Below the pieces are notes generated by a model. That model did not search any database. It was given only the letters and a program-made list of their open reading frames with translations, and was not told the DNA's origin. Position numbers and translations under genes: made by a program. From Neelides folsomi (taxonomy: Eukaryota; Arthropoda; Collembola; Neelipleona; Neelidae): DNA of 64,000 bases. Of this stretch, positions 7,343 to 41,717 are shown in pieces. Position 1 is the stretch's first letter. Every line of letters begins with the position of its first letter. The stretch spans positions 1 through 64,000 of the forward strand of contig JAQGBZ010000113.1 of the NCBI GenBank assembly GCA_034687125.1, in the 5' to 3' direction.

Positions 7343-9699
7343 TTAAATCATTTTCGTCGCTTCTGAGTATGAGGGCAAATATAAGGACTCATAAGAGGGT
7401 GGAAGGATGCGGATTTCATTCGGTTCTGCCCGAACCTCGGAGTTGAACTTAGGAATAAAGCACTGTTCCGGTGTCTCTGCTAATGGGGCTCTGATTGGAT
7501 TGGCCATCATGGAGCTGAGCATGAGATTCATCTCTTCGGAACGGCTCACTTCCGTTTCATGATGAACCGCGTCCCTGAAAAATATTTTCATAACTCAATT
7601 TTCAGCTCGTCTTCTCCCCAAAAGAAACTTTCTATTTTCCAGATTCTCTCCCCTAACAAGATTCAACTTTTTTAAAGTGGAAAGTTTCCTCATGGAACAA
7701 AGTTTTGCAGACAATAAATATTTAAGAAAACTTAGTGTACTTTTTCAATGCTCAGATAAACTCAGATTCAAACAATATGATTTAGAAGAGAGGAATATTC
7801 ATATAATTCATCTTACAAATGTATAAGTATGGAATTTGCATCTGTTTATTTAAACAAGAATCTGCATAAACAAAGGGTTTTCAATGCAAATGCAAGTACA
7901 TGCTTACCTTCGAGTTTTAGGACTTCCGTATAAGTGAAAACCAATGAGAATGATGAGAATGACGATTCCGACGGAAGCAGATGTGGTTCGCACGAACCCC
8001 ATTTTGTTATTCGCATAATATTTCCCTGATCCTCCTTCATTGGAGAAATGGGGCTCGGGTAAGAAGCCCATTTGTGTGAGGAGAAACACTTCTTGTGGAC
8101 AATCGTATTCTCCGCAAAATTCTTCTCCGCGCCATCGACTACAATTGCTATCTTTTTCTCCATCACTTTCTTCAGAGTCTCCCACGTTGAGATTCCGATA
8201 TTGCTGGACTCGGATTAAATTACACGTCGAACCTATAAAATTGCAAATTTTTAATGAAACTCCCAATTTATTGTAAAAGTGACAAATAAGATTTCAAGCA
8301 AATAAATTAATATACTATTGAACTTAACTTTAATACTTAAAACAAGCTTTGTACAATATTTTGAGTAGTGGTAAGTAAATTCTAATGCCGGGAAAGAAAG
8401 TTTTAATAAGTTATGTTTGCACATTAGGTAAATAACTTTTATAAGCACTTTGATTGAACAAGAGAACTCGCGGAGTTTGAAAGAAAATGTTATTTTATGA
8501 ACCAAAGAACAGAACAAGTTAAGGTCCAATTATAACTTTATGTTTATTTAACAACATTAAATAAACGGAAAAGATGATTTAATAACGCATTAGCATGCAG
8601 GGTATCAATTTGAGACATCTTATACATAATATAGAAATAGTAGGTATAGTATATGCTTTATACATATATTTTATGAATAATATACATAATATATAATATC
8701 TGTACTACAAGACTACAAAGTAATACCTATAACAGAAGATGATTTGGATTAAAACAATATGTATTTACCTAGTACATGTATGAATATGATTTTTTCACCT
8801 GTATAAGAAATGAAGATGATTTGAAGGTAACGTTTACTCAGCCAATTTTCATCGTCGGCCGAAGGAGTAAATTTGATTTTTCCTTCGGCCGATTTCCAAA
8901 TGTCAAGGAAGACTTCCGGTTGGCCCTTACGATTTCGACTCCGTCCATGAAGTTTCTTTAACTGTCGGCTCTGGCACAGGAAATGCTGTTCTGCTTCGCT
9001 TCCACGAAAACTCCCAAACTACACCCAATTACCGTAAATATTTAGGTCTCAGCTTTCATAAACTTTTTTTTGGTATGTTTGACAATTTTTGGCATCCATT
9101 TAAGAAGGAAACATTTAAGTGTTTATAAAAAGCGAAATATTTTTAGTACAAGCGAAACATAATTTCATTTCTTAACAATATGAGCATTTTAAGATCATAC
9201 CTCAAATACTTTATTGCATTTTTTTGAGAAAATGAAATTCCAGGGCTTTGAGTCTGAATTGATTGCTCTAAGCTCAACTTTAACAACGACTTGACTCTCC
9301 TCTTTTTCATCCTCAATCGGCCTCTTTTTCAATTTAAATATACAAGGCTTGTAATAGAGACTCTCAAGAGTCTCAAAACTAAAGTTCCGTTTCTCAATTT
9401 GGTTCAAAGGGTCCGGACATAAATCGTCGCTAGGAATGAAACCTGGGGACAAATAAAGAACAATACTATTAAGCCTATTTTTCTACATTAAATGTGTAAT
9501 AAATTGTCGTCGAATTGAAGCTATTCAAATGACTCCAATTAAGTTTAATGTTATTAATGTGGGGGTTACGTGTGGGCTCGGAGATTGCAATCGTTTTCCT
9601 CAGATTGATGGCGACGGTGAGCGGGAAACAGGAGAAAAGAATGACAAATGCACAAAAGACGGTGATGAAGAAGAAAACTTCATGTTCCGGCCCACTCAT
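7343..9699 (-). CDS. CUB-family type I membrane protein, paralog A
   Basis: Five minus-strand exons (9570-9699, 9201-9442, 8799-9018, 7908-8232, 7343-7574) join in frame to 382 residues, with intron phases 1, 0, 1, 2. A signal peptide (about residues 8-30) is followed by an ectodomain with the block LCPDPLN, a hydrophobic-alternating stretch around CIF and VKVELRAI, and QIIFISYT. These positions match paralog B and, more loosely, the CUB domain of paralog C. A Cys-rich stretch follows where C has an LDLa module, but the LDLa pattern is not kept. Then come a transmembrane segment (about 281-299) and a tail of about 77 residues ending PPSYESLYLPSYSEATKMI, which contains a PPxY motif overlapping a YxxL signal. 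Ligand and role are unknown. The start is the ATG directly before the signal sequence. No enzyme motif is present. Confidence 0.88.
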
Positions 9700-12645
9700 T
9701 ATTCCGAATCTTTCTCAACATGAGATTCAAGGACACAGGGCCGGGGAAAAGTCCCGGACTTCCTTCCCACAACAAACCCCACCGACGTCTGAGCCCGGGC
9801 AGGGGAATTAGAAAATAAAAGGGGGATTCCGCGCAGGGTCCTTGTCAAAATCTGTAAAATATAGAAGGATGAATCGGATATTCACCGATAAGACCCGCGA
9901 TCGTCTGCACCGAAATCATCATCATCTTCTCATCTCCACCATTGGGGAAATAAATACAGGTTGAACATGCGACGGAACATCCAGAGCTCAACATGCAAAA
10001 TCCCAATTAACCCAACGAACGTCAAATGTCTCCACTTTCCTCCATTTCCCTCCACCCGATTCAATTATCCGAGTAATTTGATTATTAGAGAAATGTATAG
10101 GGAATTCGGTATATAGGATTATTTCCCCGGCCGTCATCTCCATTTGAGTTGAGTGGAGAGCGGCGCTGAAATAAATCTCATTCTTTTCATCCATTCATTT
10201 TTGTCATCTCACAGCGAGACTCTTTATGTAATTGCATTTTCTCTTGGGTGTAATTGGAAGCAGTAAAAGCTTTTAAAGCTTTCACAATTTTACCTACACA
10301 CTTCATTTTTACCTTGTTCACTTGTTCATAAAAGACTACAAAGTATTATACTTAATACACTACTTTACACAATACTATACAAGTACTAACTACTACATAG
10401 GTAAGTATCTAATATTACAACTTTCATAAAATATAAATCATGCATGTAAATAAATCTTAAACCTAATTGCATTAATTTCAATTGTTATATTATTTATCTT
10501 CTTTTTGTATAAATATTTACCTTGTATTCAAAAGAGGTATTATTTATTTTAATTAATGTTAGTATTGTACCTAATATTAATTTGTACTCCCACGTATCAA
10601 ATAACTAATTATCTAAATTATGCTTATATTACAAACAATTTCCTATGTAAAATACAGTAAAATGTTTCTAATAAAAGACGACAGGAGCAATAATCCGAAG
10701 AAGGAAGGATTAAGAATAACGATTATATCATGCAATTACCAGTTTTCTCTCCCTGTGACTTGATCAAGGTTATTAACTTATTTAGGGTGAATTGCGGTTT
10801 ATTATAAAACTTTATACAACCTGTCTGAGTGAATACATTTGATGTCATTCAAAGTTCCAATTAAGCTGTCGAGTTCCATTAATTCAACATTAATTTACTC
10901 CAGTTTACTCCTACATTTACATTACCCGCAGTTTAGCAAAATGAGAGCGAATTTTCAAGGCATTTCTTTAATGGAAATGATGTAATAATTAATAATGTTT
11001 ATTAAATAAATGTGTAGATGAATTATACAATAGTTTTATACAGGACTACAATATTATATAATCTTATAAATATGTGGATATATCTATGTATTTAAAAATT
11101 GTGTGATGCATTGGAGCCGTTTGTTAGAGTCGCAATTGATGCTGCACTACGAATTCAAATACTCACAATTAAAACAGGATAAGTTTATTAACTTCTTATC
11201 GTTCCTTCTCGGTCGGCTAATTGGATTCTCAACACTCCTCATTAACTGCACAGAATAGTTGCGTTTGATTCCAACATTTTCAAAGGCTCGAATTCACACT
11301 ATACCAATATAATACACATCCATGATTCATGACTTGTGCACATGCGACGACGTAATTTAATATTAAAATTTCACTACCAAATTGAGAATCATACAATGTA
11401 ATGTAATATTTATAAATGACTTTTAACATAACATAAGCATTGGAATATGAATCATACAGTTCTTAATAGAATCGTATTTTTTTCTAAATCGTTTAGTTCA
11501 ACTCATAACAATTAAAGTTGAATAAGATAAGTTCCTTGCTCAATTGCGATTAGCCACAGGAAGAGAAGTTTTGAGTAAATGGTTCTTTTTATCATTTTAT
11601 TACTCTTCGGTCATCCCATTATGTAAATCAACATGCAGCCTGTGAACTCTTCTCTGATTGAGACAATGTTACGATAAATTGTTTTTACACACAGTGAGAT
11701 ACATTTAAGCTCTTTGGCAGTTCACGAAACTCTCAGGTCTACAAAAAGGTTATCCATGTACAAATAAATGTATATGATTAATCTCCATAAAGGAGCATTG
11801 GTACAAAGGGTTCAAAATTTCCTCATTGAAGTTTTCTAGGAAGAGTCGTACATGTGCTAATTACACCGAAGACGAAAAGATTAAAGAAGGAGCTTGTGTA
11901 CTCTGTGTAATTGGCATACACAATATATAAATCCTCGTAATTATGAATAAAATATTTTCACAGGGACGGCTCTGTAGGTTTTTTACGGAATGGGGGATTT
12001 CCACTTCTCTCATCCTCAATAATCCGCAGTGAATGAAGTGGAGGCGAATCCTTAAAGGTGAATTCACTGGTTATTTTAATACTTTTCTTATTCCAGTCTA
12101 ATCTATTCCCCTATATGAAATTACATAAGCGAACATTAGCATTTTGAACCTTCCCATCCAATTTCCTTCACAGGGCCAAAATATTAAATTGCGAGGCCCG
12201 AAAGTGAAATTGACATTCAAATTGTAATAGGGTTTGAAAGGATTCATCCTCCAGGACCACTCGGCAGAGCCTCTGTGTTTCTCCAATAAAGGTTTCCCCC
12301 ATCGTGATGGGATTCGAAAATCGGGAGTTGGGAAGGAAGCTCCGCTATATCCCTCCTTGGGCTGAGATGACTATCAGTAATTTATAGAGAAGTTATATCT
12401 GTGGACTCCTTTTTATATCCATTGATATTCCGGGGAAGTAAACTACAAGAGGATTTATATTCTGTCTGTATAAAGAAAAGGTATAAAAGCGGGACATTTG
12501 TCTCCGAATTCAATTTGACCGTTCTTTCCTCTCTTTCGGCTCATTGGATGAATCAATTCTAAAACCTTGGTAGTTTTAGCACTCCAACACTGCACGGCTA
12601 CACACACTGTTCCACCCATTCGACGAGTGTTTTTTGAGACCTGAA
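9700..12645. other. Intergenic between CUB paralog A and ELOVL
   Basis: No gene was established here. The minus strand at 9720-10200 is GC-richer and is likely the promoter or 5' UTR of paralog A; an open frame at 9988-10194 (minus) has no known domain. From about 10200 to 11900 the DNA is AT-rich with nothing visible. The minus strand at 11958-12305 holds coding-like stretches described in the findings. The ELOVL promoter lies at about 12480. Confidence 0.5.
12482..12489 (+). promoter_or_regulatory. TATA box of the ELOVL gene
   Basis: TATAAAAG in a GC-rich setting lies 164 bp upstream of the ELOVL start codon. A start site some 30 bp downstream would leave a 5' UTR of about 130 bp. This is supported by position and sequence only. 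Confidence 0.6.
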
Positions 12646-14122
12646 ATGAGTTTGAGTTCAATAATGAAACCCGGTGATTCTATTTCCTTCCTTCCCGACT
12701 CAAATCCCACTTTCTATGAAGTCTACGAGTGGGAAAAGTTTGATTTTGTCGGGGCTCAGAACTGGATGAAGGATTATTGGTGGGTGAGCGGGATGTTTGT
12801 CTTTTCCTATCTCGCCCTCATCCTCATCGGGAGGAAAATGATGGAGAAAAGAAGCCCAATGAAGAAGAAAGGAATCCTCGCTCTTTGGAATTTATTTCAC
12901 TCCGCCTTTGCCACGCTCGCCTTCTTAAGAACAATGCCAGAAATGATTTTTTTGTTATCGAAACCCAATGGCTTTCACACTTCCGTGTGCTCGAGGTAAT
13001 CTTTTAATTCACACTTTCCCCATTTCGTCAATGCGCCCATTTTCTTAAAAGGAAAATTCCCCAATAAAGGACAAAAAAGCAGCAGATGGGAAAAGAAATG
13101 AGTTGGGGAATCGTGGAATGATGATTTTGCTCTGTTAAATAGAAACAATTTGACCATCGGGACTGCATATTGGATTTGGATTGGCACATTGTCAAAAGTG
13201 ATGGAGCTTGGAGACACCGCTTTCATCATCTTAAAGAAACAACCGCTCATATTCCTCCATTGGTATTTTACAATAACTCCCTTTTATTGCCATTCCTATC
13301 TTTTTGGATTTCGAGTGGGTTTATTGATCATAATCAATGTTGATGTATTTTCTTGGTGGGAAAGTCCAAGTTGATCAAATATTTTTGATCAAATAACAAA
13401 TTTCGAAGGTACCATCATGCGACAGTAATGCTCTACACTTGGGTCACATATGGAGACAACGACCCTTCTCATCGGTGGTTTATGGCAAGTCTGCTTGAAT
13501 TCGGATTTATTAAACTTGTCCCTTTTTAATATAAAATTGTCTTTTTATACACCTAAATTAATAAAAGCTCCAGGGGCAGTTAAAGGAATCGTACACATTT
13601 GTGAGTATAATTAAATATTGATTTCCTTGTAGGTGATGAACTACTTTGTCCACAGTCTGATGTACGCTTATTTTTTCCTCAAATCTCTCAAAGTGTCTGT
13701 TCCCAAATTTGTGGCGATGACGATCACAACTCTCCAAATCCTCCAGATGATCATAGGAATTGGAGTCAACTTCTACGCATTGTTCGCCTTAGGTGAGTTC
13801 TTATCAAGAATGTATTGATTTCGAATCAAAGGATTTGCATATATTAAGGCTTAGCCTCCAAGAATGCTTTGAAAAGGTATGGTCCTGAGTTCGTGTAAAA
13901 GACCCTTTTCCCCATTCAGTGTTCTCTCCAATGAATGTGGCGCATTTAGGGATGTCCTCATTTGAGATTAATGAGGATGATTCTTTTTCTACAGGACTGG
14001 GCCGGCCGTGTGAGAGAGAAGCCAAAAATGTTCACCTTGCCATTCTCATGTACTTGTCCTATCTTGCTCTCTTCGCTCGCTTCTTCTCCCAAAGTTACTT
14101 CCAGAAGAGGAAAATTGATTAA
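12646..14122 (+). CDS. ELOVL: Very-long-chain fatty acid elongase (ELOVL3/6-like)
   Basis: The enzyme is the ER 3-ketoacyl-CoA synthase that condenses acyl-CoA with malonyl-CoA. Five exons (12646-12995, 13143-13262, 13409-13484, 13633-13792, 13995-14122) give 277 residues, the usual size. Diagnostic blocks are [28 protein letters not shown], the histidine box LHWYHH (H156, H159, H160), [17 protein letters not shown], and the C-terminal [16 protein letters not shown], which ends in a KxKxx ER-retrieval signal. FHTSVC and the general order resemble ELOVL6 rather than ELOVL1/7. Intron 3 starts with GC (ATG|GCAAGT) and is needed to join WFM to VMNYF. The next gene, a WS/DGAT acyltransferase, converges on it. 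Confidence 0.95.
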
Positions 14123-14633
14123 ACACTCTCCACTTGGATAAAAAACATACACAGTTCTCATACATTACAATCTTATAAATAAATGACAGACTGTGCCAGT
14201 ACACTAGTAATATGTTATTTAAATAGGTAAAGTGGGTTCTTTCACAATGCGATTCTTTTCTTCTCCCATTCAATGCGTTCAATGACATTTTCTTTTCCAA
14301 AGAACCTTTAATATAGGAATGTGCTAGGAGTAATATATCTGCATAGTCCATTGAAGAGTAATATGTTGCAACTGATGGAATTCTCTCCACGTGTTGGCAA
14401 TTAGAAAATGTTAAATTTTATTAGAACACCTAAAATTAAGGAATTGAAGCCATAAGTGAATTAATAATTGATATGTATTTAAATATTTATTTATTTTTCA
14501 ATTTTATTGTTCAATATAAAAACAGAATTAAAATGGATTTTAAAATGGTTAAATAATTTTAATATGTTACATAGTATGGTGGTATTTATTAATAACACTA
14601 TTTATATAATGAATGGAATTTATATGATTTAAG
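14123..14633. other. Convergent 3' flanks of ELOVL and WS/DGAT
   Basis: The stops of the two genes are 511 bp apart and face each other, so this stretch holds both 3' UTRs. Plus-strand AATAAA occurs near 14178. Nothing else is visible. Confidence 0.5.
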
Positions 14634-16858
14634 TTATACAACATCCGGATCGTTTCCTCTTAAAGCTTGAAACTCTTTCATAACAAAATGAAGAATTTCT
14701 TGAACAAGGGCGTCGGTTGATATAATCGCTTTATCCGCCCCACCAACAATTTGAACTTTATATTTTTGAAGTAAAAAGATTCAATAAATATTATCGAATG
14801 CCATTAATATTACACAATGTTAAGGATCCTTGAAATATAAATTATAATAAACATTTAATCAAAATATGTTAATAAAACTTAAACCTCACCTCGTCCGTTG
14901 TAGCTCAAAGCGGTGAATCCAATTGCTACATATTTTGCAAATACAATTAATTTACAACATGTGCATAAAAGCTAAAAGAAAATAATTAAAACTTGCCCGT
15001 TCCCGACCATAGGCCACCTCCGATTTCCATATTGACGCATTCATGTCCGACGAAGCTGAGAGATTGAGTTGGGCCTGGGAAAGAAGACACGACGGCTGTG
15101 GCCATGTAATTTTCCGTAAAGGGTTTGATGAGGGAGGGAAACAAGGCTCCTGCTAATGGGAATAAATTGAAGATGCTCCATGGGACGGAGGAGTCTCGCA
15201 ATTCACACATTTCTTTCTCGAGAGCTTTGAGTCGTTCCACCGGCTCGTTGATGCCCGTCCACAACCTCACGTACACTCCAGCCCTCGTCAAATTTTAATC
15301 TCAATAATCCGACATTCCTCCCATTTCAATAATTTGGAAGGAAAGGGAAATACCAGTGATTTCGAAGTTTATCCGGATGATTCGGAACTGGCCACGGAAT
15401 CCCGCAATGGATCTTTTCTGGAACCTATACAATATAACTTTTATATTACTATTGGTTTAAATTACACTCCTAACTATACCCATATAACTCTTTAAAATAT
15501 TGTTTAGTTTACATTTAATTGTTAATTAGTAAAGGAGAATAAAATTGAATTTAATGATTCTAAATAAGTGGTTATTTAAACCAATTATATGATAAATCTT
15601 CTCATTTTGAGTAATAATAAATTTCAAAAATTTGAGTCGCATTAATCATTTAAGCATGAAAGAGAAATTTGGAGAATTCCCTGTAAATGCCATTTTAGAA
15701 GTTTGGGAGATTTAACGCAGGGGAGTTGCGAGGTTTTAAATTAATTAGTAGGATTAAAAGTTTCATGATACCTTAATTCCTTCTTGGAGCATAAAGTTCC
15801 TAATTCCTCCGGCAATAGCTGCCATAATGAGCCCAGACATCGAGACTTTGTGCATTGTAGTGATTTCCTTAAGATACTTCATCGGAATGGGTTCCAGAAC
15901 TCCGCAAGAGTATTCGGACGTCATTTTCAATCCGGGCCGATGCCACTCATTGTTGTCTACGGATCTCACAAGGTGTTCGAGGAGCTCGTAAGGAGCAGAG
16001 AAAAAGACAGAAATCCCCCGACAGACCCTCATGATCGGATTCCTCACCCGCGGTTCTCTCGCCCGGCTCAAATTCTCGCTAATCCCCAATACTTTAAGAC
16101 CAGTCTTGAATACTGAAAAGCTAAGAAAACAATCCCCCAATTATTTCCTATTATCATAGTAGACACAGACACCAGACACCATTATAATAATTGGTTTTAA
16201 AAAACTTCAATTAAGTGAATAAAAATTTGAACCCATCAGCAACAGCATGATGACATCTTAGAGCAAGAATCGTCCTCGACCTCACTCTGAAATTCCTAAT
16301 TACAATGATTTCCCACGGAGACCTTCTTCTGGGAAATGGCTGTCTCAACAATTCCTTCTGAATAGATAATAAACGTCGATCGTCGATGATTTCATTTTTG
16401 GAACATTCTGGATAATATTTAATATGGTTTTTGATATCAAATGTAGGGTCGAATTTCCAAAAGAAAAACCCCATCCATGAAGTAATATATTGTTGCATTT
16501 CCGGCCATGCTGTAGATCCTCCCTCACGAGTCGCATTGATCACATTGTCCAAAGCTGCTCTTCTGAAGGTTTCTACGTCCACGTCGCCGACCACTTCACC
16601 ACAAAACACCATGTTCAACTTGGGATTTTCATATATCTTGTCCACGGCTAGGATGGCCGACCGAGTGGCAACTATTTTCCCAATGTCTGGACGAAACCAG
16701 GGAGCGAGCTTGATGAGGAGGAAACGAAAAATGTAGACGGGGCTGAAAAGAGCAACAAGAGGAGGAAATAATATAATGGAGAGAATAAACGTTAATAAAA
16801 TGACCGAAACACGAAGAACTCCGCGGAATAAAATGGTAAGAACATTTTCTCCACTCAT
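14634..16858 (-). CDS. WS/DGAT-type O-acyltransferase (wax ester synthase-like)
   Basis: Bifunctional wax ester synthase/diacylglycerol acyltransferase family members esterify acyl-CoA to fatty alcohol or diacylglycerol. Six minus-strand exons (16233-16858, 15772-16120, 15354-15412, 14997-15283, 14890-14925, 14634-14755) join in frame to 492 residues. The N-terminus holds a long hydrophobic segment (about 14-48), suggesting membrane anchoring. The catalytic motif HHAVADG lies at 203-209, after SPWEIIVI. The C-terminal domain shows GIPWPVPNHPDKLRNHW, SSFPGP and the end VGGADKAIISTDALVQEIL. Intron 4 must use a GC donor (ACGG|GCAAGT) to give SGTAIGFTALSYNGR. The acceptors before exons 3 and 4 have weak pyrimidine tracts and were chosen by frame and homology. 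The substrate is not shown. Confidence 0.9.
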
Positions 16859-19278
16859 TTTCCACTCATTAAATTTAACTTTAAAACTTTTACAAATTGA
16901 TGGGTTTGTAATTGTAAAATTTATTTTAGTTAAAGTTGCAATTATTTTTATTACTTTTATTTACCACTTTAATTTTTATTACACCGCCTTTGTTCGAGCT
17001 CCACTACCTATAAACACTGCATGTATAAAAGTATTCTTTTGATAATATTTCTCCTCTCAAATTGTTGAAGTTGAGTTTTAAAAGGATTTTTTCTCATAAT
17101 TGAATTTCTTATTTAATCATTCCATGTTACATTATTTCAATGTTTTTATATTCTTGGGTGTGTTTTTCTTGTACTGGGATTTGAGCTCAAAGGGGTGAAA
17201 ATGTTTCATGGAAATTGATTTAACTTTAGATATTACAAAAGGGCAGGGAAAGATAAAGCGTGGAGTAATATACACTTTTTATGCTATCACTCCTTTCCTA
17301 TCTTTCATGCTATCATCATTGCATTATTTTCTGCTTGCAAATGCATAAGAAACATAACTTTACTTTTTAATTTTAAGACACATTATACTTCATTTTTACC
17401 TCATAAATATATAAAGTAAATTGTACAATATCCATATTATGTTAAATGTATATATTAATGGTATAAAACATGGTTTAATAAAAATAATAAACAGTCGCTT
17501 GAGTTTTATTTATAAAACCTGAGAGTAATTTGATATTATCATACAACGTTTGTTAGGAAAAATGGTAAAGATTCATACATTTACTTCTCAGAGATACAAT
17601 CACAGTCTAAATATTTGAGTACATTAACTTTAATATTCACTGTTTTATTATTGTAGTTTAGTTTATTTTAGTATTGTAGGATTAAAAAGATTTTATGGAA
17701 ATAACGTTGAGCTATCAAAAGTCCTTTACTTAAGTTATTAAGACACTATAACATTAAAATAAGAGCTGTTATCGTATTTAAGCTCAATGAAATGGATTGA
17801 GTAAAGAAAGTCGTTATTGTGAGCGGATTGAAGAGAGTGTTTCCGAAAATCAATTTATTTATTCCATTATTTTAGAAGGGGAGCTGAAGGGCTGTCAACT
17901 CCAGTGAATCTTCCAAGATGTAGAAAATGAAAGGAAGTCATTGAAAGTGGAGATTAGGTGGGTTGTTGAAACTTATTCAGCCCCTGTTAAGTCAGATACG
18001 TGGAAACCCTTCTCTGCACAATGGGAAACTTCTAAACATTCTTTGTCCTCCCACTCGGAAGCTCAAGACAAAAAGGGGATTTTAATTACTTGGATACTTT
18101 GAGGTGGAAGGAGATTTCAAAGGGACTTCTTTCACTAAATTCATTTAAAATCTAAAGCTGTAGAACATTTTATAATAATTATAACTAGACATATAATTTT
18201 CCTATATATTAAAGAATGAAACTAAAACATAATTTCATCTTTAGGCAATTTTATTCCTTTGATGGCATTTGATGAGATTTAGAGCAAATTCTTGTAAAAT
18301 ATGAATAATCTATCACTATAATTTAAGTATAGTACTAACAAGTATTTAATGCATATTTTATAATTTGGTTTATATTGGCGGATTAATGTTAAAAGTTAAA
18401 ATAAATAAATAATATGGCATTATTTAACAACCCCTCTTAAATAAAACATGAGATTTAAGTGGATTTTAAGTATTGAATCATTGTATTAGAAGTTTATGAA
18501 TATTGGATTAATTTTCAAATAAAAGTTAGTAAAATACTTCAAACTAATTTGGCCTTTCATATTGAGAAAGCTCCCTATAAAGAAAATTCTTCCCAAAAGC
18601 CCTCATTAAACTTTCTCATTAAAAACTTTGAGATGAATATTGCTCCTCATCCATTTACTAATAGTAATAATGCCCTTTTCTTAATTTCGCATACTTCATG
18701 TCTTGTTTTACTTGTGTAGGCTCCCAGTAATTTTATATTCTAACAAGAAAGATATAGACATTACACGTAGTACTATATAATATCTTATAACAGCGTGTTT
18801 TGTACTCATTTAATTTCAATAATTCTATACTAGTAGAAATAATGGTATACAAAAGATGGTCATTTTAATTTGAAGAGATTATGATAGGGATTTAAATAAT
18901 GATCGGATAAATTTGTTTGCTCAACAACCCAAGAGTTTAATGAAATGATTCGCAAATTGGTTCAATAAACCGTAAAACCTTTTAAGGTTCGGATCATTTG
19001 AGGTTTCATTTGAAAGGAAAAACAATTCCACCGTCTCTGGTTTTTTTTGTCTCAAACTTGCCGTCGAGAAAGTGAAGGAGCAAATAACAAGGTTTTTAAA
19101 AGTATTAGCTAAAGGTTTAACACACGAAGCTGGAAGGTAAAGAAGACTCATCGTGTAATAGTAATGATTATAGAGATGGGAATCCGGTTTGAATAAGTGG
19201 TCGGATGGACGGACCTTGTGGAAGTCCAGTGACCTGGTGGGTCAACGGCATCTCCTAAGATTCCTCCAGGAGACTCGC

Positions 19279-19299: not shown

Positions 19300-19351
19300 T
19301 CATGTTGACCTCCCCGAGAGAGAAGGAGATTTTTCGAGTCCGCCTCCTTCC

Positions 19352-19421: not shown

Positions 19422-21009
19422 ATGCACACGTACTTCGTAAGTCCATACATTTTAATATAATTATTTCATTTTCATTTTCATTCTCATTAAGTTTTATTTA
19501 TTATATTATATATCATTAACTATTTAACATTAAACACGAGTTCACTAATATAAATGTTTTACAACATAAAATTAAGTTTTTGTTTTACTGAATTATTCGA
19601 GTACTCGTACATTAAAGGATTGTTTTGTTTGAAGGTGCTGCTGCTAGCAGCATTATGGGCGGCTGCTGACGGGTATTATGGATATGATTACCCGTTAGGA
19701 GACTCGACGTCCCTTGAAGACTATTACTTCTACCCTGCCGAGGAGTCGTACATGGTCGACCCTTCCTATTCCCGAACAGGAAGACATAAAGGCAAGGGTT
19801 GGGGTCAAAAAGGTGGCTGGTGGTATTCATGGGGACCTAAAGGATACCAGTCAGGCTCTTGGGGAGATCCTTGGCCTGAAGGTACTTAAACACATTGCGT
19901 CACTTTTATTTTTTAAAACTAACACCTTTATTCATTTCAATTTCAAGTGACAAAAAGGATCTTACTAACCTCTGAATTCAGGGCTCATAAGATGTATTTT
20001 AACTATTCAATCAAGCTTTGTGTTAAAAATATACATTTCACGTGTATTTAATAGAATTGTAAAATAGAATCAAGTATTTTAATAAAAAAGTAAAGTAAGC
20101 ATTTTAGTAAAATTTTGGTTAAATTAGATGTATTTTTGATTAGTTATCATTTGATAATTTTGTTTAGTTTTATGCTGTAGAATTGAGTCTTTCTTTATAA
20201 AATATAACAAGGAGCTGTGTTTAATGTTTAAAATGAAACTATAGGTTGGTCCGGCGGTCATGGAGGCCACGGAGGCCATGGAGGACATGGAGGCTGGGGT
20301 GGCTGGGGTGGCTGGGGAGGTCATGCCGGACATCATGGAGGACATGGACACGGTCACGGCCATGGAGGACACGGAGGATGGGGAGGTTGGGGCAACCAAG
20401 TTCACTACAACGGCGGACACGAAGGCTGGGGATGGGGAGGAGATCATGGCGGTTGGGGAGGATGGGGCGGCGGAAAGAAAGCCCAGAAAGCTAAGAAGAA
20501 GGCCGCCAAGAAGAAGAAGAAGGCGTACAAGAAGGCCCACAAGAAGGGAGGTGGATGGGGATGGGAAGAACCCGTAGTTCACCACTTCTACCCACCAAAG
20601 GTAAAAAAACTTTTATTAATTAATCAACTTTCTCTATTCAAATAACGACTAAATTTTATATGCTGCTGTGAAGACCATCAAAGTTAAAACTTGATTTCTA
20701 AACATAAAAACTTGAAAGCATTCATTGTTAGACTTTTGACATTTTACATTCTCGTTTATTCCGATTTTTACCATAAGCCTTTTTATTGAAGTTTTATTCC
20801 TAAAGAAAGCTCATGGGAGAAATGGAAATATATTTTTATAAAAGTATTATTTCTACCTCTGGCCATGTTCAGCTTGATGTATGCATAAAAGAATGAAAAA
20901 AGGTATTTATTGGACATAAGATATTAATTGCGTGTGTAAACTATAGGTTAATGTCCATCACCCGATCCAGACAAGTGGTTGGGGTTGGAACCAAGGCTGG
21001 GGTTGGTAA
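19422..21009 (+). CDS. Secreted Gly/His/Trp-rich structural protein with Lys-rich block
   Basis: Four exons (19422-19436, 19635-19881, 20245-20600, 20947-21009) join in frame to 226 residues. The five-residue first exon plus the start of exon 2 make a signal peptide (about 1-16, ending AAA). The mature chain has an acidic Tyr-rich part (YYGYDYPLG), a Gly/Trp/Lys linker, then residues 88-164 built of GGH, GHGH and GGWGGW units. A Lys/Ala block of 24 residues follows (about 165-188, 16 Lys) and then a GWGW, VVHHFYPPK and GWGWNQGWGW ending. His-rich repeats can bind metal, and Lys/Tyr-rich chains can be cross-linked, so a cuticle, adhesive, silk or glue role is possible but inferred. No chitin-binding or other named domain is seen. 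Confidence 0.85.
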
Positions 21010-22395: not shown

Positions 22396-24295
22396 ATGGC
22401 TTTCGGGACTTTCACTTCACATTTGAGTCTCGTAGGATTTAAAGGACTTTCAATCATTTTAACCCTCGCTTTCAATATCAACTTGACAATTGGAAAATCC
22501 TTCATTAGAACAAGTACGCAATATTTTAATCAATTTAATAGAAATTAATCAATGATGATTTTATTGTAAATTAAATATTTGAATTGAATTCTAAATGTAA
22601 GGATAAATCTACATCGGGTGTTTTTGTTCAAGTAAAGGGTATTTATTGAATTTAATAAAATATTTTCTAATAGGTGAAAATGATTTTTATTATCAAGCAG
22701 CAAATCTTCAGAGTGAAACTTTGTGCCCGGATCCCCTCAACATCTTTCCATCTAAAGAATTCAATTTCCAAACGCTTCAGCGACTTTACTTCAGACCATG
22801 CATCTTTGCCGCAGAGGGAAACGATAAACTTGTGAAGGTCGAAGTGAGGGCAATTCATTCAGAAGCCGAAATGTGGGATTTTAAAGATCTACCAAATTCA
22901 CAGACATGTCGTGATATTTACAATGTAATTAAAATATGACGCATAATATTAATTTTTAATATATGGTAATTTACATAATATGTATAGGTATATTGCTTTT
23001 TTATCTAACTTTTATAAATCCACTTACCTATTCGTTTTTATAAATACTAGGTGAAAGTATTCGATTATTGAAATACTAATTGATATTAAATGAACCATAT
23101 TGTCTTTTTATCCAAATGACACATTTTACATCATTGAATGCCTAACATTAAATACCTAGTTCTCAAAATAACTGTTTTTGAAATTTTTTTTAGTTTGAGC
23201 CAATTTCTCGACAAAACGATATAGAGAAAGTTACTGGCCCATTTCTCATTTGCAAGAGCCGAAAATTGAGGAAATACGAATATGAAAATGACAACTTCTT
23301 TGACATTTGGGACGTTCAAGGGAGATTAAAATTCTACACAACATACAATATTTGGGAAGAAGCCAAATTCTTTCAAATCATTTTCATCATTTATGAAGGT
23401 AATTCACACTCTTGAACATAACTCGATGGTCTTTCAGATTTTATTAGTAACATTAACATTGAGTAACATGTTTTGTATTTTAATCCGTATATGGTTTACA
23501 TAAACCTTATAAACCTTTGTGTTAGAATAAATATTTTAAAATGTTCTTTACACAATTAAAAAATATTTTAATTTTTAGAATATTCTTGTTCAAGAATTCA
23601 AGTTCAGCAATATGCGATCACTTCATGGTGCAATGCAACTCTTTTGAGTGAATTCTCATCCACAATTTGTGCCCATTTTAATTGCTCTCAAGAAACGGCC
23701 ATTATGGAGAAAATAGGATTCCTACCTGACAAAAATACCGATTTTCCGCGTTACAGACGAAATTTCATTGGGAAGCTCAGGTGGATTTTCAATACAAATA
23801 CAAATACATTATCATTTTATTAAATATTTAATGAGCCTGTTCAATAAAACATTTTTTTAGTGTTTTGATATCAAATATCACGTCTTTGGCTCTTTTCATC
23901 CTTGTGGCCATCGTCCTTAAATCGCTCATTGTTCGATACCTGAGGTAAATTGAATTAACTTAAAAGAACAACTTGATGACATTCGCAATATCTCCAAGTG
24001 TATACATTGAATGTTTCATTATGGCTTGAATAGGAAACCATATGGGATCTACGGAATGTATCCGAACAATAGTCCGGACGGTATTTCTCCCTCGAGCGGC
24101 GGAACAGGGTGGGGAAGTGAAGGCGAGCGTCCTCATGTTCACCATCACAGGAGCAGACGGTCGACGACACCGCCGAGTCGACAACTCCCTCGGACAATCA
24201 ACCACTCTGCACATCTCCCTGTGGATCTCGAAACTCCCCCGCCAGCTTACGACTCACTTTCGCCTCCTTCTTACTCGGAAGCCACAAAAACATAA
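22396..24295 (+). CDS. CUB-family type I membrane protein, paralog B
   Basis: Six exons (22396-22513, 22674-22924, 23194-23398, 23579-23780, 23861-23944, 24034-24295) give 373 residues with intron phases 1, 0, 1, 2, 2. The first exon is a signal peptide exon (MAFGTFTSHLSLV and SIILTLAF) found only by asking for a phase-1 start; it is antisense to a longer minus frame. The ectodomain parallels paralog A: ETLCPDPLN, FNFQTLQRLYFRPCIF, VKVEVRAIHSE, FFDIWDVQGRLKFY, QIIFIIYE, IQVQQYA and KIGFLP. Exon 5 is almost entirely the transmembrane segment. The tail of about 85 residues has a Gly/Ser stretch, a His/Arg stretch, and the end PPPAYDSLSPPSYSEATKT with two PY motifs. The extra intron before the last exon is the only difference in gene structure from A. 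Function is unknown. Confidence 0.9.
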
Positions 24296-29365: not shown

Positions 29366-29373
29366 TAAATAAA

Positions 29374-29625: not shown

Positions 29626-30607
29626 CAGGGTCCCTCTTAATGTTTTGCCTCTATCTTAGGATGACTTCTAAATATCACATATTTTTTCATTCATTTTCAG
29701 TTCAGACCTTTTTTTTAATCACAAACATAAGTGACTTTATTGTGAAACAAATAAAAACACCAACACAAATTAGATATCCAGGGAGTTCAACAATTCTTTC
29801 CGAATCATCAATTTGGGGAATTGATTTTGCCGACTCTGTCGTTTTGAAAATTCGGTTTTCTTGCTTGATAAATGAAGAATTCGTCACTGGGTGCCAAATG
29901 GATGGAATCTTCTATCCAATTACGAAGATATTGACAGAACCATAATCAGTCTTCAATATTCGCTTTTGACTTCTTTGGTTTTTTGATGACATGAAAGGGT
30001 TTCATCCCTTCTTTCTTAAGAAATCGTCTCGCGGTTTCAGAACTAACGATTTTGCACCGCTTTAAAGCAATTTCACTGGACAATGTCGATGAACTTCTTT
30101 TTGAATTTTCTAAAATGATGTCTTTCGGCTCTTGAATCATTTTATCTGGTCTTCCAGATATTGAAGTGTCCATTTTACACGTATAGTAAGTTTGTTTCCA
30201 TGTGCCCCTAACCCATCTTAAGTTCTTTTTCAAACTGTCGGAAATTCACTTTTGCGTTATGAATATCGCGCCTTCATCTTTAGCTTCTTTCCAAGCTATT
30301 GCTTTAATTCTATCAATGTAACAATTTTCCTCTGAATCGTTAACAAGAGGCATTGTAAAAATTAAATCCAATAACTTTTATTGAGTTTAAAATGATACTC
30401 ATTTTTGCATTTTCAAATTATATTTTTATACGCTTTATTAAAATTTTTCTCATAATTCCCATATAATATTTGAACTTTGACATATCATGATGAAATTATA
30501 CACCCTAATACAGTTTTTTGTGCTCTTTCAAATGGTATATGGCTCATCTTTCTGAGATATTTAAAAATCATCGGACGGATAGAGGCAAATCATTATGAGG
30601 GACCCTG
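29626..30607. mobile_element. Tc1/mariner-type DNA transposon, decayed, about 980 bp
   Basis: Both ends begin CAGGGTCCCTC and are flanked by TA (29624-29625 and 30608-30609), the mariner-type target. The terminal inverted repeats match over about 55-60 bp, with some divergence (TCTTAATG at one end against TCATAATG at the other). The interior encodes an N-terminal transposase remnant on the minus strand but no complete DDE catalytic domain. Only 20 bp separate its start from the end of the MITE's target duplication. Confidence 0.85.
29946..30353 (-). pseudogene. Transposase N-terminal remnant (helix-turn-helix part)
   Basis: From an ATG at 30353 the frame reads about 35 residues to an in-frame TGA at 30248-30246 and then stays open to 29946. 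The later part, SSEIALKRCKIVSSETARRF followed by LKKEGMKPFHVIKKPKK, resembles the second DNA-binding helix-turn-helix and linker of Tc1/mariner-type transposases. The DDE domain that should follow is not recognisable in the 320 bp left before the terminal repeat. The copy cannot make active enzyme. Confidence 0.75.
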
Positions 30608-30609
30608 TA

Positions 30610-33600: not shown

Positions 33601-33923
33601 GTAAGATATGGAAATACGATGGGACATTTAATGTCTTGCTTATTGTTATCTCAGAGTGAGTGCGAAGTGGAGGAGGATGTAAAGTGGAAGGAAACGAAGT
33701 AGAAAGTTAATTCTCCTATAGTATAGTTAAAGTAGTAGTTATATTCTCATAATAGAACCCAAGTGTAGGTTGTTGGAATGGGGTCTCGAGGATTAAATAG
33801 CGTTTGTTCGCATCCCTCTGTGCTTGGCTTGAGGGCAAGAGGGATTTTGTCAGTGCAGGGGGATGTTCGCCCTACACCTTTCCCATCCAGCCTCAGTCAT
33901 CTCAGGAGCCAGGAACACTCAAC
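30610..33923. other. Intergenic upstream of CUB paralog C
   Basis: About 3.3 kb with no convincing exon. Patches at 31600-31760, 32780-33000 and 33640-33920 are GC-richer; the last is the likely promoter and 5' UTR of paralog C. Open frames at 31503-31724 (minus), 32254-32620 (plus) and 33778-34191 (plus) have no domain support. Confidence 0.5.
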
Positions 33924-36900
33924 ATGGCGAGGCTCATCACGAGACTCCCAAATCTTCTTTTCCTCATCTTCGTCCTCGTCTCGTCCACGTTATCCGCCTC
34001 AGTTCCTCCGACAAATTCCGACTATCTGCACCGTAAGTAAAAGTTCATACATGATAGCTCCCTTCCAAATAAGTTTAAACTGTTTAAAGTTCAAAAGAGT
34101 AAGAGTTCAAATGTGCGAGGAATTGAAATTGATAAGAGATTTGAATAGATTTAATTCTGTTTTAATTAATTTCTTAATGTTAGCTATTTGATTTAGTTTT
34201 GGAGCTATTAGTTTTTAGGATTGATTTTTGATGAGGGAGCCATTGAACCTGTTGTTTTGTTCCCCGTTGAAGTGTTTTCCGATTTATTACTAAAAAGTGG
34301 TTTATTGCTGAGAGAGTTTGAGAGTTGGATCAACAGGATTCGAAGCATCGCTGAAAATGGCATTGACTTCGACGTGGTGTTTTTATTACGGTTGCATATC
34401 GGGGCGGATCTTGTTTTTTAAATTTAACTTTAATGTGAGGGATAGCTTTTAGAGAAAAATATTTTTTGACCTGAACGTTCTTTGAGGGAAATGAGGGCAA
34501 GTGCAAGTAAAGAAGTCTTGACTCACGTTATACGAGGATGATTTTCGAGAGAAGGAGATCGTCACACTCAATGATGAAAATCGAGATATTCTGCACGAAA
34601 CTCTTCTTTTAACAATAACAAAATTTGTTCAATGTTATTTTCATACATTTTACTATACTTGAATACTTTGGAATTAATATCCCAACTTTTGTAGAATTTT
34701 CCTTTTGACTTCTTCAACTTTTACAAAAAACATTTTCTATTTATCTCGGGTTTGAAGGATTTCTTCCTTACATTTGGAGTAACTTAAAGAGGAAAATTTT
34801 GTTGAACTCAGCGATGCGTAGTTTGTACAAATTTTATTGTCCAGCTCCTACCCAGATTCATCTTGGTATTTGTTACATTGTTACGTATAGATTTAATATA
34901 TTACTTGAATAAGATTGTCTCGCCAAGATAAGTGCAATTAAAATTTTAGGTAACATCTTTCCCCTTATTTTCAACGATATATGATCACAATTTGACTATG
35001 AAAAAACTTGGTGGCCTCTTACACCTTTTTTATATTAATTGACTGCACCTGATGTTAACAAGAGGATAAAGGAAATGAGGATAAATTAGATTCAACACGA
35101 ACTCGTTTATTCTTCTTTTATCTTCTTCATCGGAAAGAGAGGACAATATTTTACCCAAATAAGCACACACATGGAAAAGAAATAAATTTACATTCTAAAT
35201 TCCACCAGCCGTATTTAAAATAAGTATTTGCAATTTATTCCTCCATAGCTGAAGTAATATACGGAATATTGAGGATTTAAGGGATTGCATGGGAAAAATA
35301 CGGTAAAGAGTGAGAAAGTCTTATTACAATTCAAACTTATTTATCAAAATAATTGCGAATTCACTACAGAATATTTTGTATTTAAAATGCGCATAATTAA
35401 TGAAGGTGGTTTACTTGAGGTTTCCTCGACCGTTCAGTTGAACACTTGGAATGCATTTCCCTATACACCTTTATAAGCTCACGAACGTTATTTTTGGATG
35501 AGAGAAATTGAAATTAAGGGCGAACCCTTTTCATGTGGCTTTGAGGTCAAGTTAAGACGGAAGCGAAATATTCCAAACTCTGACAATAAATTGTATAGAC
35601 AATACATATGGTGAGTTCGAACAAGTGGATACATTACTTATTCTTAAAGAGCAATTACGAGATAAAGTTTGAAGGACTTTTGCTACCTTGTTCATCCAAA
35701 TGTAGATGCAACAAGTGGGATTTTTACTTTATTTCACTCTTTTATTCTCCTTGTTTTATTTTCATTATATTCGAATAAATGAGAGTTTTATGTGCCACCA
35801 AATGGCACCGGCTTTTATCACCTATTTAGATTTTCTAATGGAAAATGACGCTTTTTACCATTTTTACGACATTATTATTCACTTTACTTTGAAACTTACA
35901 TACTTTTCAATAAATACGTTTCCGGGTATTGGATCTATAGTATATATGGGATATATTCTGATATATTCCTTAATCCAACACTGAAAATATAGATAATTAA
36001 AGTATAGTCTGTATAATTGTTATTAATTACGTTATATTGCAGATCATGTTTGGCTTTTGGAGGAGAAAAGTATGCTATTTCGGAAACAAATTTGATTTTG
36101 GTGGTTTTTAACGATTTTTATAATAAATATTTTAAAACATTTTGAAATTGTGAAGATACACAAGATTATATTTCAAATGTGGAATTTTAAAATTAATTTG
36201 TATTATATTTAATTAAGCATCCGGTCATTTTCTATAAGGTGGGTTTGGTTAGACGGTCCTTCTTATAATTATCAATTCGATTATTATAGATTTGAAGAAA
36301 CGCATGTAAAGTATTATCTTCTATTCTTACTTATCTTATAAATATTGTTTATCTTTTTCATTTAGTTTATCTTTCTGTCTTTTCGTATTTTACCAAACAG
36401 TTGACTTATTACATCACTATTTATTTTGAATTGTAATACATAATTCGTATTATTTAAAATTGTATTAACAACACTTTACAACTGTATTGTATGAAAAAAT
36501 TGTTGTTTGATTGCGCATTTTGAAATCAATGAGTCAGATAAAGTGGATAGTTTATCTTAAATAAATCATGAATTAGGTAATTAATCTGTTAGGGATTACG
36601 GAAGACATCAATTATGACATAACTTTGTCATTTGAGTCTCAGAGTATTTATCAACTTACGATAGACTCTGACTTTTTTAAAATTTTGTACTAAACGTTGC
36701 AATGCGTTAATGTATGTAATACTGTTTAATAATTTTTAGCTAAAGATTGTGACTCATTTTACATTTAGAATAGATAACATAAAACTGTCTTTTTTGTGAT
36801 TTGAACAAGGGTTAAATTCATTTTCACAAGATTGTAAATATAAACACAATGCAAGTATGGAAGGATTTTTATATAAGAGTGCTGACTTCACCATAATAAA

Positions 36901-39900
36901 GTAAAAAAATGATGACTGTAAGCTACGTAACTTTTAAGCGGGTTGTAGTGAATCTGCATACTAATGACATTATGGAAATAATTTAAAATATTATGCTTGA
37001 GTGCTTGATATGAAATGAGTTGTTGTGAGTTGTGACATGATCCATAACGAGATTTTTACACAGCGAGGAAATTTTACTGACATTTGTCCCCCATTTTTTT
37101 AGCGTAGTTATTTGATAAAGATGACTATAAAATAAGAATAATTTGCTTATTTGTTCAATTTTTTTGTTTATTGTTTGGTTACAATTACAATTTATTGTTT
37201 GGTTTATAGTTCGTCATAATATGACGAACTATAAACCAAAACAATATTATGCAAATGTTGGGATTTCTATTGTAGTGTAAAAAATAGCATGAATCTCTAT
37301 TGAAGGTCAAAAACTTGAATTATCCTCGCTTTTATATGGGGATTGGACGAGACGAAAGGGAAATGTGAATGTTCAATATTCACAATTAAGCCCTTTAATC
37401 TCCACTATTAACAATTTGACCACATTAGGACAAAAGGCGCGGTTTTATGCTCAATTTCATTATTTTTCCTCTCTCCAATCCACAGGGAATATTTCTGTAA
37501 ATGGAAGTATTAATTTTAACAGTAGAAGGAAAACTAGTGGGATTGTTTCGTGAATTGAAAGTTAAAAAACCCCCTTGTGCAGTTACATTGATAAAGGAAT
37601 TAAAAGAGGAAGTGAACATCAATCTGCATGACTCTCATGATTCCATTATTAACTTCAATATTTAGAGAAGGTGAAGGGGTTGAAAGGAAAACAGTTAAGC
37701 GTAGGAGGGGAAATGATGAGTTGTGATTCCTTGGAACAATTAGAACTCAAAACTTATCAATTTATTTATTTAGATGTTCTGTACAATTGAGGAGCTGTAA
37801 TGACTATACAGGTACCTTTGTTTGGTATCTCAACTCGTATTTATTAGAATGCAGTTAGACGGATGTTATATTCGCCAAGGTGCACCTAATGCGAATTTCT
37901 CATCTTCGCTCTCTCTTCACTTTCGAATATACACGGAACTTTGTAACAGGACATGGTGGAGATTCATACATTGTAAGGTTCAAGATCCGGAATTTATATT
38001 TGTTGGAAAGGAGTCTGATTGCGGAAAATAATAAAGAAGGTTCTCCCATTTACCCTTTCCGTTCCCTGACCAGTCGAACGAGGAACGAGACTCACCCTCA
38101 CTCCCAGTCAGATGAAATTATTATATCTGAGACTTTATTATCAGCAGAATTACTCACATCCATATGCCTTTTTACCTCTAACCATTAAAACCAATGACTC
38201 CTAGTTCCACACCTTTGAGATTTCACTCTAGAACCAATGTTGAACATTCATGGACATGGATCAAAATTTCAGGATTAAAACTTAAACCGTGTATGATACG
38301 ATTGATGATTTTCTCATTAACTTCAGGGTCGCTCTTAAACTTACAATTTATGAGCCGTATAACCTTGTCTATTCAATTTCTTCGACATTTATTAATATTA
38401 CTTTAAAGGTAACAAACACACATAAAAGTATTTATTATTATTGTTATTGCATAAATATTCATCTAAAACGATTAGCAGATTTATTCAATATAAGCACGTT
38501 CATTTAAGGACAGAAAAAATTATACATTTTTGAGGCAGCTATATTTATTGTTACGATATTTTGGAATTTTTAAAAACTTTATTAACACTTTGACGTATGT
38601 ATTCACTTCCGTTGTTTATTTAGAAAACTCCTCTGTCTGAAAGAGTTAAATTTGTTAAAGAACGGGCGTTTGTATACAAAGAAGTGGATACATTCCCTTG
38701 AATTGTTTAGCTCTGGTTTAACGTCGCTTGTGCATGTGTGTAAAATTTGATTCTTCATGGGAGCCATGTTGGGCTTCAAAAATGATATAGCGTGGGAAGT
38801 GTTAAAAGAGATTTGAAAAATATTCCCAATTCAGCCCTCGTACTTGATTGCCAAAGATATAATGACCATGTGCGTTGAGGGAAACTGAAATGAATGTAAA
38901 CATGAACTCTGAGACATGGAGAAAATGTTTCTTGTGTTTATAAATAGGAAATGTAGTGGATATTTATAGGGAGTTTATTAAAGAGAGTTTTTTGGGTAAT
39001 CCAAACCGTGGGTTTTTTCCAACTTGACTAATTTTCCTTTCCTGAAAGATGCGATTAAACATCACAAGTGACGGTCGTCGAAGAAAGCATTCTAATTATA
39101 TAAGAAAACGTGATGTTGCTTTACGAGCTTAAACTATCTTTCTGCAACACGTTTCACAGTAAATTTAAAATCAACGTTCTTATGACATAACGTCGAGTAT
39201 ACCAGTTGTATGTTTATGCAGTGAAGAAATTTTGCATGGTTCAAGATCCAAATTTCTGTTTTAATGGTTGAACATGTAATAGCAATAGCAGTCTCTCTAA
39301 ATGTTTGAATCTTGTGTATGCACTGAAGAAGAGTAATTTCACATTTCTAAACATAACCTCGACATTCTTGCGAAAACAGACTTTTCTTGTCAGCGTCTTC
39401 AATTTCATTTCTGATTCTTCCATATGTATCAGGAAAAAAGTTTTTCTGATTACGCCAACTCGTGTAATGGAAATACTGATAGTAAACGCTGTGCATTTGA
39501 AACGGAAGTTTAAGCTTAAAGAGAACGTTTTGGAATTCGAAATAATCTTATGCATTTTTTAAATGGCTTTCTACGCTGCGAGGTCAACCCAGAGGAGAAT
39601 GCAAATGGGGCTTTTAAATCTCTGAAATTCAATTGTATGTAAATTCCGATTTTGAGGCGGGGAAATCCCTTGAATTTTTATTCCGCACGTTTAACAATAT
39701 TCCTAATTGCAAAATTAAAGTTCATTAAGCGAGCCTGAAATTGTTTGTGTGCCAAAGAATTGTGAACAATTTTCAAGAATCCTTTTTACTACGTGAGGAT
39801 CATTTTAAACTAGTGTAACATATTAATTAACTACTATTTTCTTTTGGTTTCGGCTATGTTTAAAATAATAATATCTTAATAATAAATTACATGTTCTATT

Positions 39901-41717
39901 ATAATTTTTTGCTAATTGATGGTTTTTTTTCTTTGTAGAATATTTAGAAAATGTTGAGATCTGTGCAGCAACTGGAATCGGGCTTTTTGCCGAATTGGGG
40001 AAAAAGAAGATTCGACTTTCGAATTTTTCTAATAATACCGTCTCAATGAAGATCTCAAGATGGGAGGATTACTCCGGCTCCTTCTATAACTATAATTGCA
40101 AATTCCAAGTCTCAGCTCCGAAGGGCCAAGGGGTAATGGCAGTCATTCAAAGTCTTCATATGAGGACCAAAGAGGGGCCAAAAAATACGACAATTTGTAA
40201 AGACTATATAAAAGTAAGAAAATAATAATATATCTAATTATTATTATCTAATGATAATCTAATTTTTTGAGTTCATTGTTTAATTGGAAATTGTTATTTT
40301 TTTAGTTTGAAGATCATTCAAATAAGAAATCTCCGTCCATTTGTGGAGAAATTGAGAAAAAGGATCCAAATCCTCGTCCAGCGAAATTGATTGGACCAAG
40401 ATATTTTTATGACTCCACTGGAGAGATGGATGTCATATTTTCCACACAAGACCTTGGGCCAAAAGATGAAAAGAGAGTCGATCTCCATATTGTCTTCACG
40501 GCGTATTCAGGTCGGCACAAAAATCCATTTTTATATTCATGAGACCTGTTGAACTTCACTTAATATTCCATTTGTATTTGAATAGCTTGTGTATATCCTA
40601 CTTATATCCTATTATAGTAATATTAATTATAATATTTACTATTTACTATTAAACATAATTATATTTCTATTATTGAATATATGGAAATCTCAAATATCAG
40701 ATAGCATTAATTTAGATTGGTAAAGTTATAGTAATTTCCAACATAGAGAGACTTTAAAGTTTAGAGACAATCAAGAGAATATTTGAATTCAAGAGTCGAA
40801 TCAATCTCAATGTAATATTATAAATTTTATTTAAATTTTGGGAGTAAGTGGGGAAAACAAAGTATTATTTAATGATCTCTCATATTTGAAATATTAATTC
40901 GGCATACCTATTAAATCTTTCGTCTGCTCGTTTATAATAAACGGAAATTAGAAAAAAGATATCCCATAGAAGAATAAAATCTTTTATTCTTGGCTTACTC
41001 GTTTTGCATAACAAATAGAGTCAAATTACAAAACATAATTATGAGTGGTGTGTGAATGTATGATGAATAATGATTATTATTTAAAATTAGCGATAAAGTC
41101 ATTATAATAACTCCATTTTCATTCCAGATTGCTCTGGGAATGAGCTTGAGGATATGAAAGTGAAGGCGTGCTCGAGGAAACGTGACAAATCTTGTGTTCC
41201 TTCCGGTCTCTTCTGTGACAACGTGATCAACTGCGGATTTGACGAAGACGACTTTGGAGACGACGAAATGTGTTCTAACGAGGCGAGAAGTGCTGGAGAG
41301 CTTGAGAGCTCCTTTTCTCATTTCACGCTCATCTTTGTCGTGACTTTGATTGCGACGCTCGTGAGCTTCGTTCTTGTCATCGCCTTCGTTTGTTGCTGTT
41401 GCCGCCGGGTGGCTTCTAAAAGAAGAACCGTCGCTTCTTCTCAAACACAAAATAATCCCGAGTCTCTCGAGTTCAATTTGGATATTTCAGGGTAAATATC
41501 AATTTTATAAATTATCGTAAATTGTAAAATGTTATTAAAATATTGTTTAACAATGTTGGGATGATTAAATTAATGTTTTTCTTTTAGGCCACCTTCAGCT
41601 CCACCAAGAACATTAGAACGCTCAAGCCCAAGTGGTAAAATTGAAGATTTGCCTCCAGCATATGATGCTTTGTTTCCATTTAAAGACCAACAGGATTCGA
41701 AATGTTTCAAGAAGTAA
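33924..41717 (+). CDS. CUB-LDLa type I membrane protein, paralog C
   Basis: Five exons (33924-34032, 39939-40213, 40306-40510, 41128-41491, 41588-41717) join in frame to 360 residues with intron phases 1, 0, 1, 2, the same series as paralog A. The first exon is a signal peptide (MARLITRLPNLLFLIFVLV). The CUB-like ectodomain has CKFQVSAPKGQGVMAVIQSL, CKDYIKFED, SICGEI and VDLHIVFTAYSDC. An LDL-receptor class A module follows (about 198-245) with CVPSGLFCDNVINCGFDED and GDDEMC, keeping Cys spacing and acidic calcium ligands. Then come a transmembrane segment ending CCCC, a basic stop-transfer stretch, and a proline-rich tail with PPAYDALF (340-347). Intron 1 is 5.9 kb, far longer than the others. 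The CUB-LDLa-TM order recalls a cut-down Neto-type auxiliary receptor; partner and role are unknown. Confidence 0.92.
34033..39938 (+). other. 5.9-kb first intron of CUB paralog C
   Basis: It is bounded by a GTAAGT donor and a TTTGTAG acceptor. No internal exon is needed: the phase is kept directly from exon 1 to exon 2. Open frames inside (37822-38507, 39241-39562, 35706-35984) lack domain or splice support. It holds a tight foldback at 37193-37246. Regulatory content is likely given the length but not shown. Confidence 0.6.
37193..37246. repeat. Near-perfect foldback in intron 1 of paralog C
   Basis: Left arm 37193-37218 and right arm 37220-37246 pair almost completely (one extra A on the right), with a one-base loop at 37219. 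The core pair is GGTTTATAGTTCGTCATA with its complement. The sequence TTATTGTTTGGTT also occurs once more just upstream (about 37169-37181), so a partial duplication preceded the inversion. Confidence 0.8.

Follow-up and report, generated by a model that had tools for sequence, protein, structure and literature searches.

Organization of the locus

The window analysed here is a 64 kb stretch of AT-rich DNA (GC 32%) and harbors three intact multi-exon genes, denoted A, B and C, with full spliced open frames and canonical GT-AG introns (Table 1). The encoded proteins share one layout, namely an N-terminal hydrophobic segment (signal peptide), a cysteine-containing ectodomain, one transmembrane segment (TM) and a short proline-rich tail harboring a PPxY motif. 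Exon 3 is 205 bp long in both B and C, as stated by the initial annotation and borne out by the spliced models, and 220 bp in A. The first intron of C spans 5906 bp, and the TM of B sits in an exon of its own, flanked by the two phase 2 introns of this gene. The TM of C is immediately followed by a run of four cysteines (CCCC, 41391-41402 (+), residues 285-288), which is absent from A and B and represents a plausible palmitoylation site.

The three genes are located on both strands and are, in agreement with the earlier description, interleaved with unrelated genes, among them a TRM methyltransferase, an ELO elongase, a WS/DGAT acyltransferase and a Fringe-like glycosyltransferase. A three-member profile run against all six frames of the window revealed no fourth member of the family, and relatives of A, B and C are absent from the prokaryote and viral collections searched.

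Table 1. Coordinates of the genes and sequence features within the 64 kb window.
Feature	Position	Strand	Remarks
Gene A	7343-9699	-	382 aa; open spliced frame
Gene A, exons	9699-9570, 9442-9201, 9018-8799, 8232-7908, 7574-7343	-	last exon including stop
Gene A, TM	7931-7987	-	residues 280-298; Kyte-Doolittle peak 2.10
Gene A, tandem PY tail	7343-7402	-	C-terminal PPSYESLYLPSYSEATKMI; two [PL]PxY in 0.07% of shuffled tails
Gene B	22396-24295	+	373 aa; open spliced frame
Gene B, exons	22396-22513, 22674-22924, 23194-23398, 23579-23780, 23861-23944, 24034-24295	+	
Gene B, TM	23862-23918	+	residues 260-278; Kyte-Doolittle peak 2.64
Gene B, tandem PY tail	24239-24295	+	C-terminal PPAYDSLSPPSYSEATKT; two [PL]PxY in 0.85% of shuffled tails
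Gene C	33924-41717	+	360 aa; open spliced frame
Gene C, exons	33924-34032, 39939-40213, 40306-40510, 41128-41491, 41588-41717	+	
Gene C, CUB domain	39939-40510	+	by profile; exons 2 and 3; Cys45, 90, 123, 141
Gene C, LDLa-like module	41130-41273	+	six Cys, spacings 12, 7, 6, 5, 12; acidic end
Gene C, TM	41328-41384	+	residues 264-282; Kyte-Doolittle peak 2.98
Gene C, extended PY motif PPAYDAL	41652-41672	+	PPxYxx(hydrophobic) in 0.5% of shuffled tails
TRM methyltransferase gene	upstream of gene A		unrelated to A, B and C
ELO fatty-acid elongase	about 12580-13700	+	between A and B; unrelated to A, B and C
WS/DGAT acyltransferase	14986-16960	-	Pfam WS_DGAT_cat and WS_DGAT_C; between A and B; unrelated
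Fringe-like glycosyltransferase gene	between B and C		unrelated to A, B and C

The ectodomains

The initial annotation had assigned a signal peptide, a CUB-like ectodomain, a TM and a proline-rich tail to each gene and had proposed a comparison with CUB and LDLa profiles as a check. Signal peptide, TM and tail are confirmed throughout, and the CUB assignment finds profile support in C and none in A and B. The match of C to the Pfam CUB family (PF00431; E-value 0.0038, 18 bits) remains below the curated cut-off of 21.4. A second profile, built with a CUB consensus as search seed from eight structurally solved CUB domains in the PDB, scores 9.5 bits on C, compared to 7.2 bits for the best of about 830 scored shuffles. 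On A and B this profile scores no better than on shuffles, and no Pfam CUB match is observed for them. Neither C nor the three-row alignment found a match in sequence searches of the PDB. Weak Pfam matches to BAAT_C (A) and to SUR7, SCIMP and others (C) lie below cut-off and are judged to be due to chance.

All three proteins contain four cysteines in the CUB region, with successive gaps of 25, 42 and 20 residues in A, 25, 36 and 25 in B and 45, 33 and 18 in C. They thereby conform to the cysteine pattern of CUB domains (two pairs, about 26 and then about 20 residues apart), the gap between the first two cysteines of C being long. A putative CUB fold of A and B is based on this cysteine pattern, on the intron sites they have in common with C and on the alignment of exon 3 with C described below.

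Between the CUB domain and the TM, C harbors a six-cysteine, LDLa-like module with a core spacing of x6 and x5 and with acidic residues in the CDN..NC and DDEMC segments, which gives no match to the Pfam LDLa family (PF00057). The predicted structure of this piece alone (pLDDT 44) is uninformative. A six-cysteine LDLa is absent from A and B, where the corresponding region contains four cysteines only.

Intron positions

The intron phases are 1, 0, 1, 2 in A, 1, 0, 1, 2, 2 in B and 1, 0, 1, 2 in C. The series 1, 0, 1, 2 noted earlier for all three genes is thus numerically correct, but the equivalence of the fourth introns does not hold, as their positions relative to the TM differ. In A, the fourth intron (phase 2) lies 7 residues past the TM. 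In B, the fourth intron precedes the TM, and the fifth (phase 2), located 8 residues past the TM, is the counterpart of the fourth intron of A. In C, 35 residues separate the TM from the fourth intron, which precedes the PPxY motif by 23 residues. Since the fourth introns are not equivalent, the series common to all three genes is 1, 0, 1 only, and the phase match at intron 4 was rejected as evidence. Comparable are three introns across A, B and C, and four between A and B if the fifth intron of B is used.

In all three genes, the signal peptide is followed by intron 1 in phase 1, a phase often seen for introns behind signal peptides or flanking extracellular modules. Counted from the third CUB cysteine (Cys3), intron 2 lies in each gene exactly five codons downstream in phase 0, and intron 3 is found in phase 1 exactly one codon after the CUB-terminal tyrosine. 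The chance of exact placement of introns 2 and 3 is about 1e-5, as calculated for random placement in one gene. No literature on CUB intron phases was found.

Relationship and age of the three genes

A and B share 35% identity in the whole-length alignment, and their ectodomains align with a score of 277, the highest value among 1000 shuffles being 67. Judged by their sequences, they are unambiguously paralogs. At four-fold degenerate sites the third bases of A and B are identical in 8 of 27 cases, with a chance expectation of 26%. As this identity is at chance level, the duplication that gave rise to A and B, the closest pair, is already old, and C goes back further still. A recent tandem or lineage-specific expansion was rejected for A and B, since low synonymous divergence is not found and the four-fold sites are saturated; the view that the family is expanding in this lineage is therefore unsupported. 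With three members within 35 kb and on both strands, it is a reasonable inference that the genes spread via local duplication and inversion.

The position of C is less obvious from direct comparison. Free local similarity in the ectodomain is absent (A-C z -0.7, B-C z 0.0), and in a profile-profile comparison of A and B with C the PPxY tail alone is matched. In an intron-anchored test, which presupposes exon correspondence as exons are aligned end to end with their counterparts, exon 3 of C aligns with A and B with a z of 5.0 (0/200 shuffles reach the score), and the comparison of exon 2 gives p 0.02. The best match of the tails has a z of 5.7, and the ectodomain part of exon 4 depicts no similarity of C to A and B in the anchored comparison. 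The two exact intron positions, the anchored exon 3 and the PPxYxxL tail support C as a far more distant relative of A and B. Alternatively, C might be unrelated to them, two kinds of type I protein having converged on PY tails and phase 1 introns. The missing free similarity of the ectodomains, the profile match confined to the tail, the dissimilar exon 4 and the general frequency of phase 1 introns around extracellular modules would all be in line with such convergence. We nevertheless consider it quite improbable, because it accounts neither for a phase 0 intron at Cys3+5 together with a phase 1 intron at Tyr+1 nor for the alignment of exon 3, and because all three genes lie within 35 kb. 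The common ancestry and the shared gene architecture proposed by the initial annotation are accordingly retained, based on the A-B score and, for C, on introns 2 and 3, exon 3 and the tail.

The cytoplasmic tails

Every tail contains an extended PPxYxxL motif, which reads PPSYESL in A, PPAYDSL in B and PPAYDAL in C (shuffle probabilities 0.007, 0.014 and 0.005, respectively). A and B possess a second PY motif at a distance of eight residues, PPSY being succeeded by LPSY in A and PPAY by PPSY in B, and at the C-terminus of both proteins SYSEATK is followed by one or two further residues. Given the shortness of PY motifs, a single one occurs by chance in 4-15% of shuffled proline-rich tails. In ENaC, Nedd4 is bound via an extended PY motif of the form PPxYxxL, and the motif can act in the protein's own degradation (PMC2582799).

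A tandem PY tail on a single-pass protein is also known from Commissureless, which via PPCY (residues 220-223) and LPSY (229-232) acts as a substrate adaptor recruiting Nedd4 for the degradation of Robo1, and reaches late endosomes (PMC12101832; PMC5578492). The two motifs are nine residues apart in Commissureless versus eight in A and B, and its extended PY motif GLPSYDEAL (PMC5578492) compares with LPSYSEAT in A. Commissureless is, however, not described with a CUB ectodomain, and no homology beyond the motif is claimed.

Comparison with known CUB membrane proteins

The family had been described as uncharacterised, which is half right, since membrane proteins with a single CUB domain, an LDLa module and a TM are already known from Drosophila. 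Loaf (lost and found, CG6024) comprises 378 residues with one CUB domain ending at Thr208, an LDLa, a TM and a cytoplasmic part formed by residues 292-378; it is localized to Hrs/Rab7 late endosomes, where control over the trafficking of other surface proteins has been proposed as its role (PMC8205486). CULD (CG17352), with the same single CUB, LDLa and TM, acts in the endocytic trafficking of rhodopsin and TRPL (PMC4732287). The proteins reported here resemble Loaf in signal peptide, single CUB-type domain, single TM, short tail and size (360-382 residues), and their CUB regions end at residues 192-198, near the position seen in Loaf. C fits the complete order of signal peptide, CUB, LDLa, TM and short tail if its LDLa-like module is accepted, whereas A and B differ from Loaf in having no six-cysteine LDLa. 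CULD has one CUB, one LDLa and one TM, as would C with its LDLa-like module, and an endocytic role comparable to the one proposed below; its function concerns rhodopsin and TRPL. The likeness to Loaf and CULD refers to published domain layout and, for Loaf, to size.

Proposed function

Single-CUB membrane proteins are poorly understood, and two of them in flies act within endosomes rather than at the surface. As the tail offers a putative docking site for protein-recycling enzymes, the proteins reported here probably direct other proteins of the cell surface to endosomes, in a manner resembling known proteins of the fruit fly. We give somewhat better than even odds to the view that A, B and C belong to a single old family of animal proteins, whose members are of small size and type I topology and serve as endosomal cargo adaptors by recruiting ubiquitin ligases of the Nedd4 family. 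The luminal CUB-type domain, in C together with the LDLa-like module, would serve to bind a receptor or channel at the surface, and the cytoplasmic PPxYxxL motif, which is doubled in A and B, would bring in a HECT ubiquitin ligase of the Nedd4 family. Adaptor and cargo would then be ubiquitinated and sorted to late endosomes rather than kept at the surface. C may have retained the Loaf/CULD layout, and A and B may form a derived sister pair in which the six-cysteine LDLa disappeared and a double PY tail resembling that of Commissureless was either acquired or retained. The gene structures, the paralogy of A and B, the common intron positions and the PY motifs are observed directly; cargo binding, Nedd4 recruitment and the endosomal site of action are all inferred.

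CUB and LDLa modules in type I membrane proteins are equally found in Neto1/Neto2, Drosophila Neto, SOL-2 and LEV-10. Of these, Neto and SOL-2 (CUB, LDLa and TM) bind and regulate ionotropic receptors; both possess two CUB domains, and LEV-10 possesses five (PMC9083331). A, B and C could likewise be cell-surface receptors or auxiliary subunits, the CUB domain clustering or tuning a synaptic ion channel and the tail governing nothing but their own turnover, as the PY motif of ENaC illustrates. This seems unlikely, as A, B and C contain at most one CUB domain and thereby match the architecture of Loaf and CULD, which are active in endosomes. Neto1/2 carry PDZ-binding tails, and the Neto, SOL-2 and LEV-10 proteins have channel auxiliary or clustering roles. 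A receptor of the LRP10/LRP12 or LRAD3 type, with a ligand-binding module outside and a PPxY motif inside that activates Itch/Nedd4, is a further candidate, whose mechanism is close to that of a cargo adaptor and whose family is different. LRP10, LRP3 and LRP12 combine CUB domains and LDLa repeats with a proline-rich tail, which in LRP10 includes PPxY, and LRAD3 activates Itch via two PPxY motifs (PMC11315911). What this group has in common with A, B and C is CUB and/or LDLa on the outside and a proline-rich tail. Those receptors, however, possess several ligand-binding LDLa repeats, and two CUB domains in LRP10, as opposed to one degenerate LDLa at most in the present proteins, and we regard a relationship of this kind as very unlikely.

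Taken as endosomal cargo adaptors, the three proteins display an architecture which is ordinary in kind and not a new type of system; a new and useful lead comes from their conserved PY tail. The family is real, old, small and akin in build to Loaf and CULD, and its tail suggests Nedd4-dependent endosomal sorting. A PY tail kept across three very divergent members would link a CUB ectodomain testably to ubiquitin-driven sorting. It is a tentative and rather doubtful idea that A and B form a branch of their own among proteins of the Loaf/CULD kind, one that dispensed with the LDLa and acquired, by fusion to a CUB-type ectodomain, a tandem PY tail like that of Commissureless. If true, A and B would be transmembrane adaptors ready to recruit Nedd4, and their luminal cargo specificity would have diversified in the animal lineage of the window.

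Further features of the window

RNA families and tRNAs were not found in the window, and the open frames tested within 42000-62600, about 20 kb, gave no recognisable coding match. Beyond this stretch a Rab-like GTPase exon is located at 62684-63007 (+). Between the Fringe-like gene and C, an open frame at 29946-30245 (-) matches Pfam HTH_Tnp_Tc3_2 below cut-off (E-value 0.00018); it may represent the helix-turn-helix of a Tc-type transposase, a mobile-element remnant that could have aided rearrangement. An open frame at 20232-20645 (+), without Pfam match, is rich in glycine, tryptophan and histidine with a lysine-rich end, and its product resembles a cuticle or silk-like protein. The ELO elongase (+) and the wax ester synthase/diacylglycerol acyltransferase (-) adjoin each other and form a lipid gene pair.
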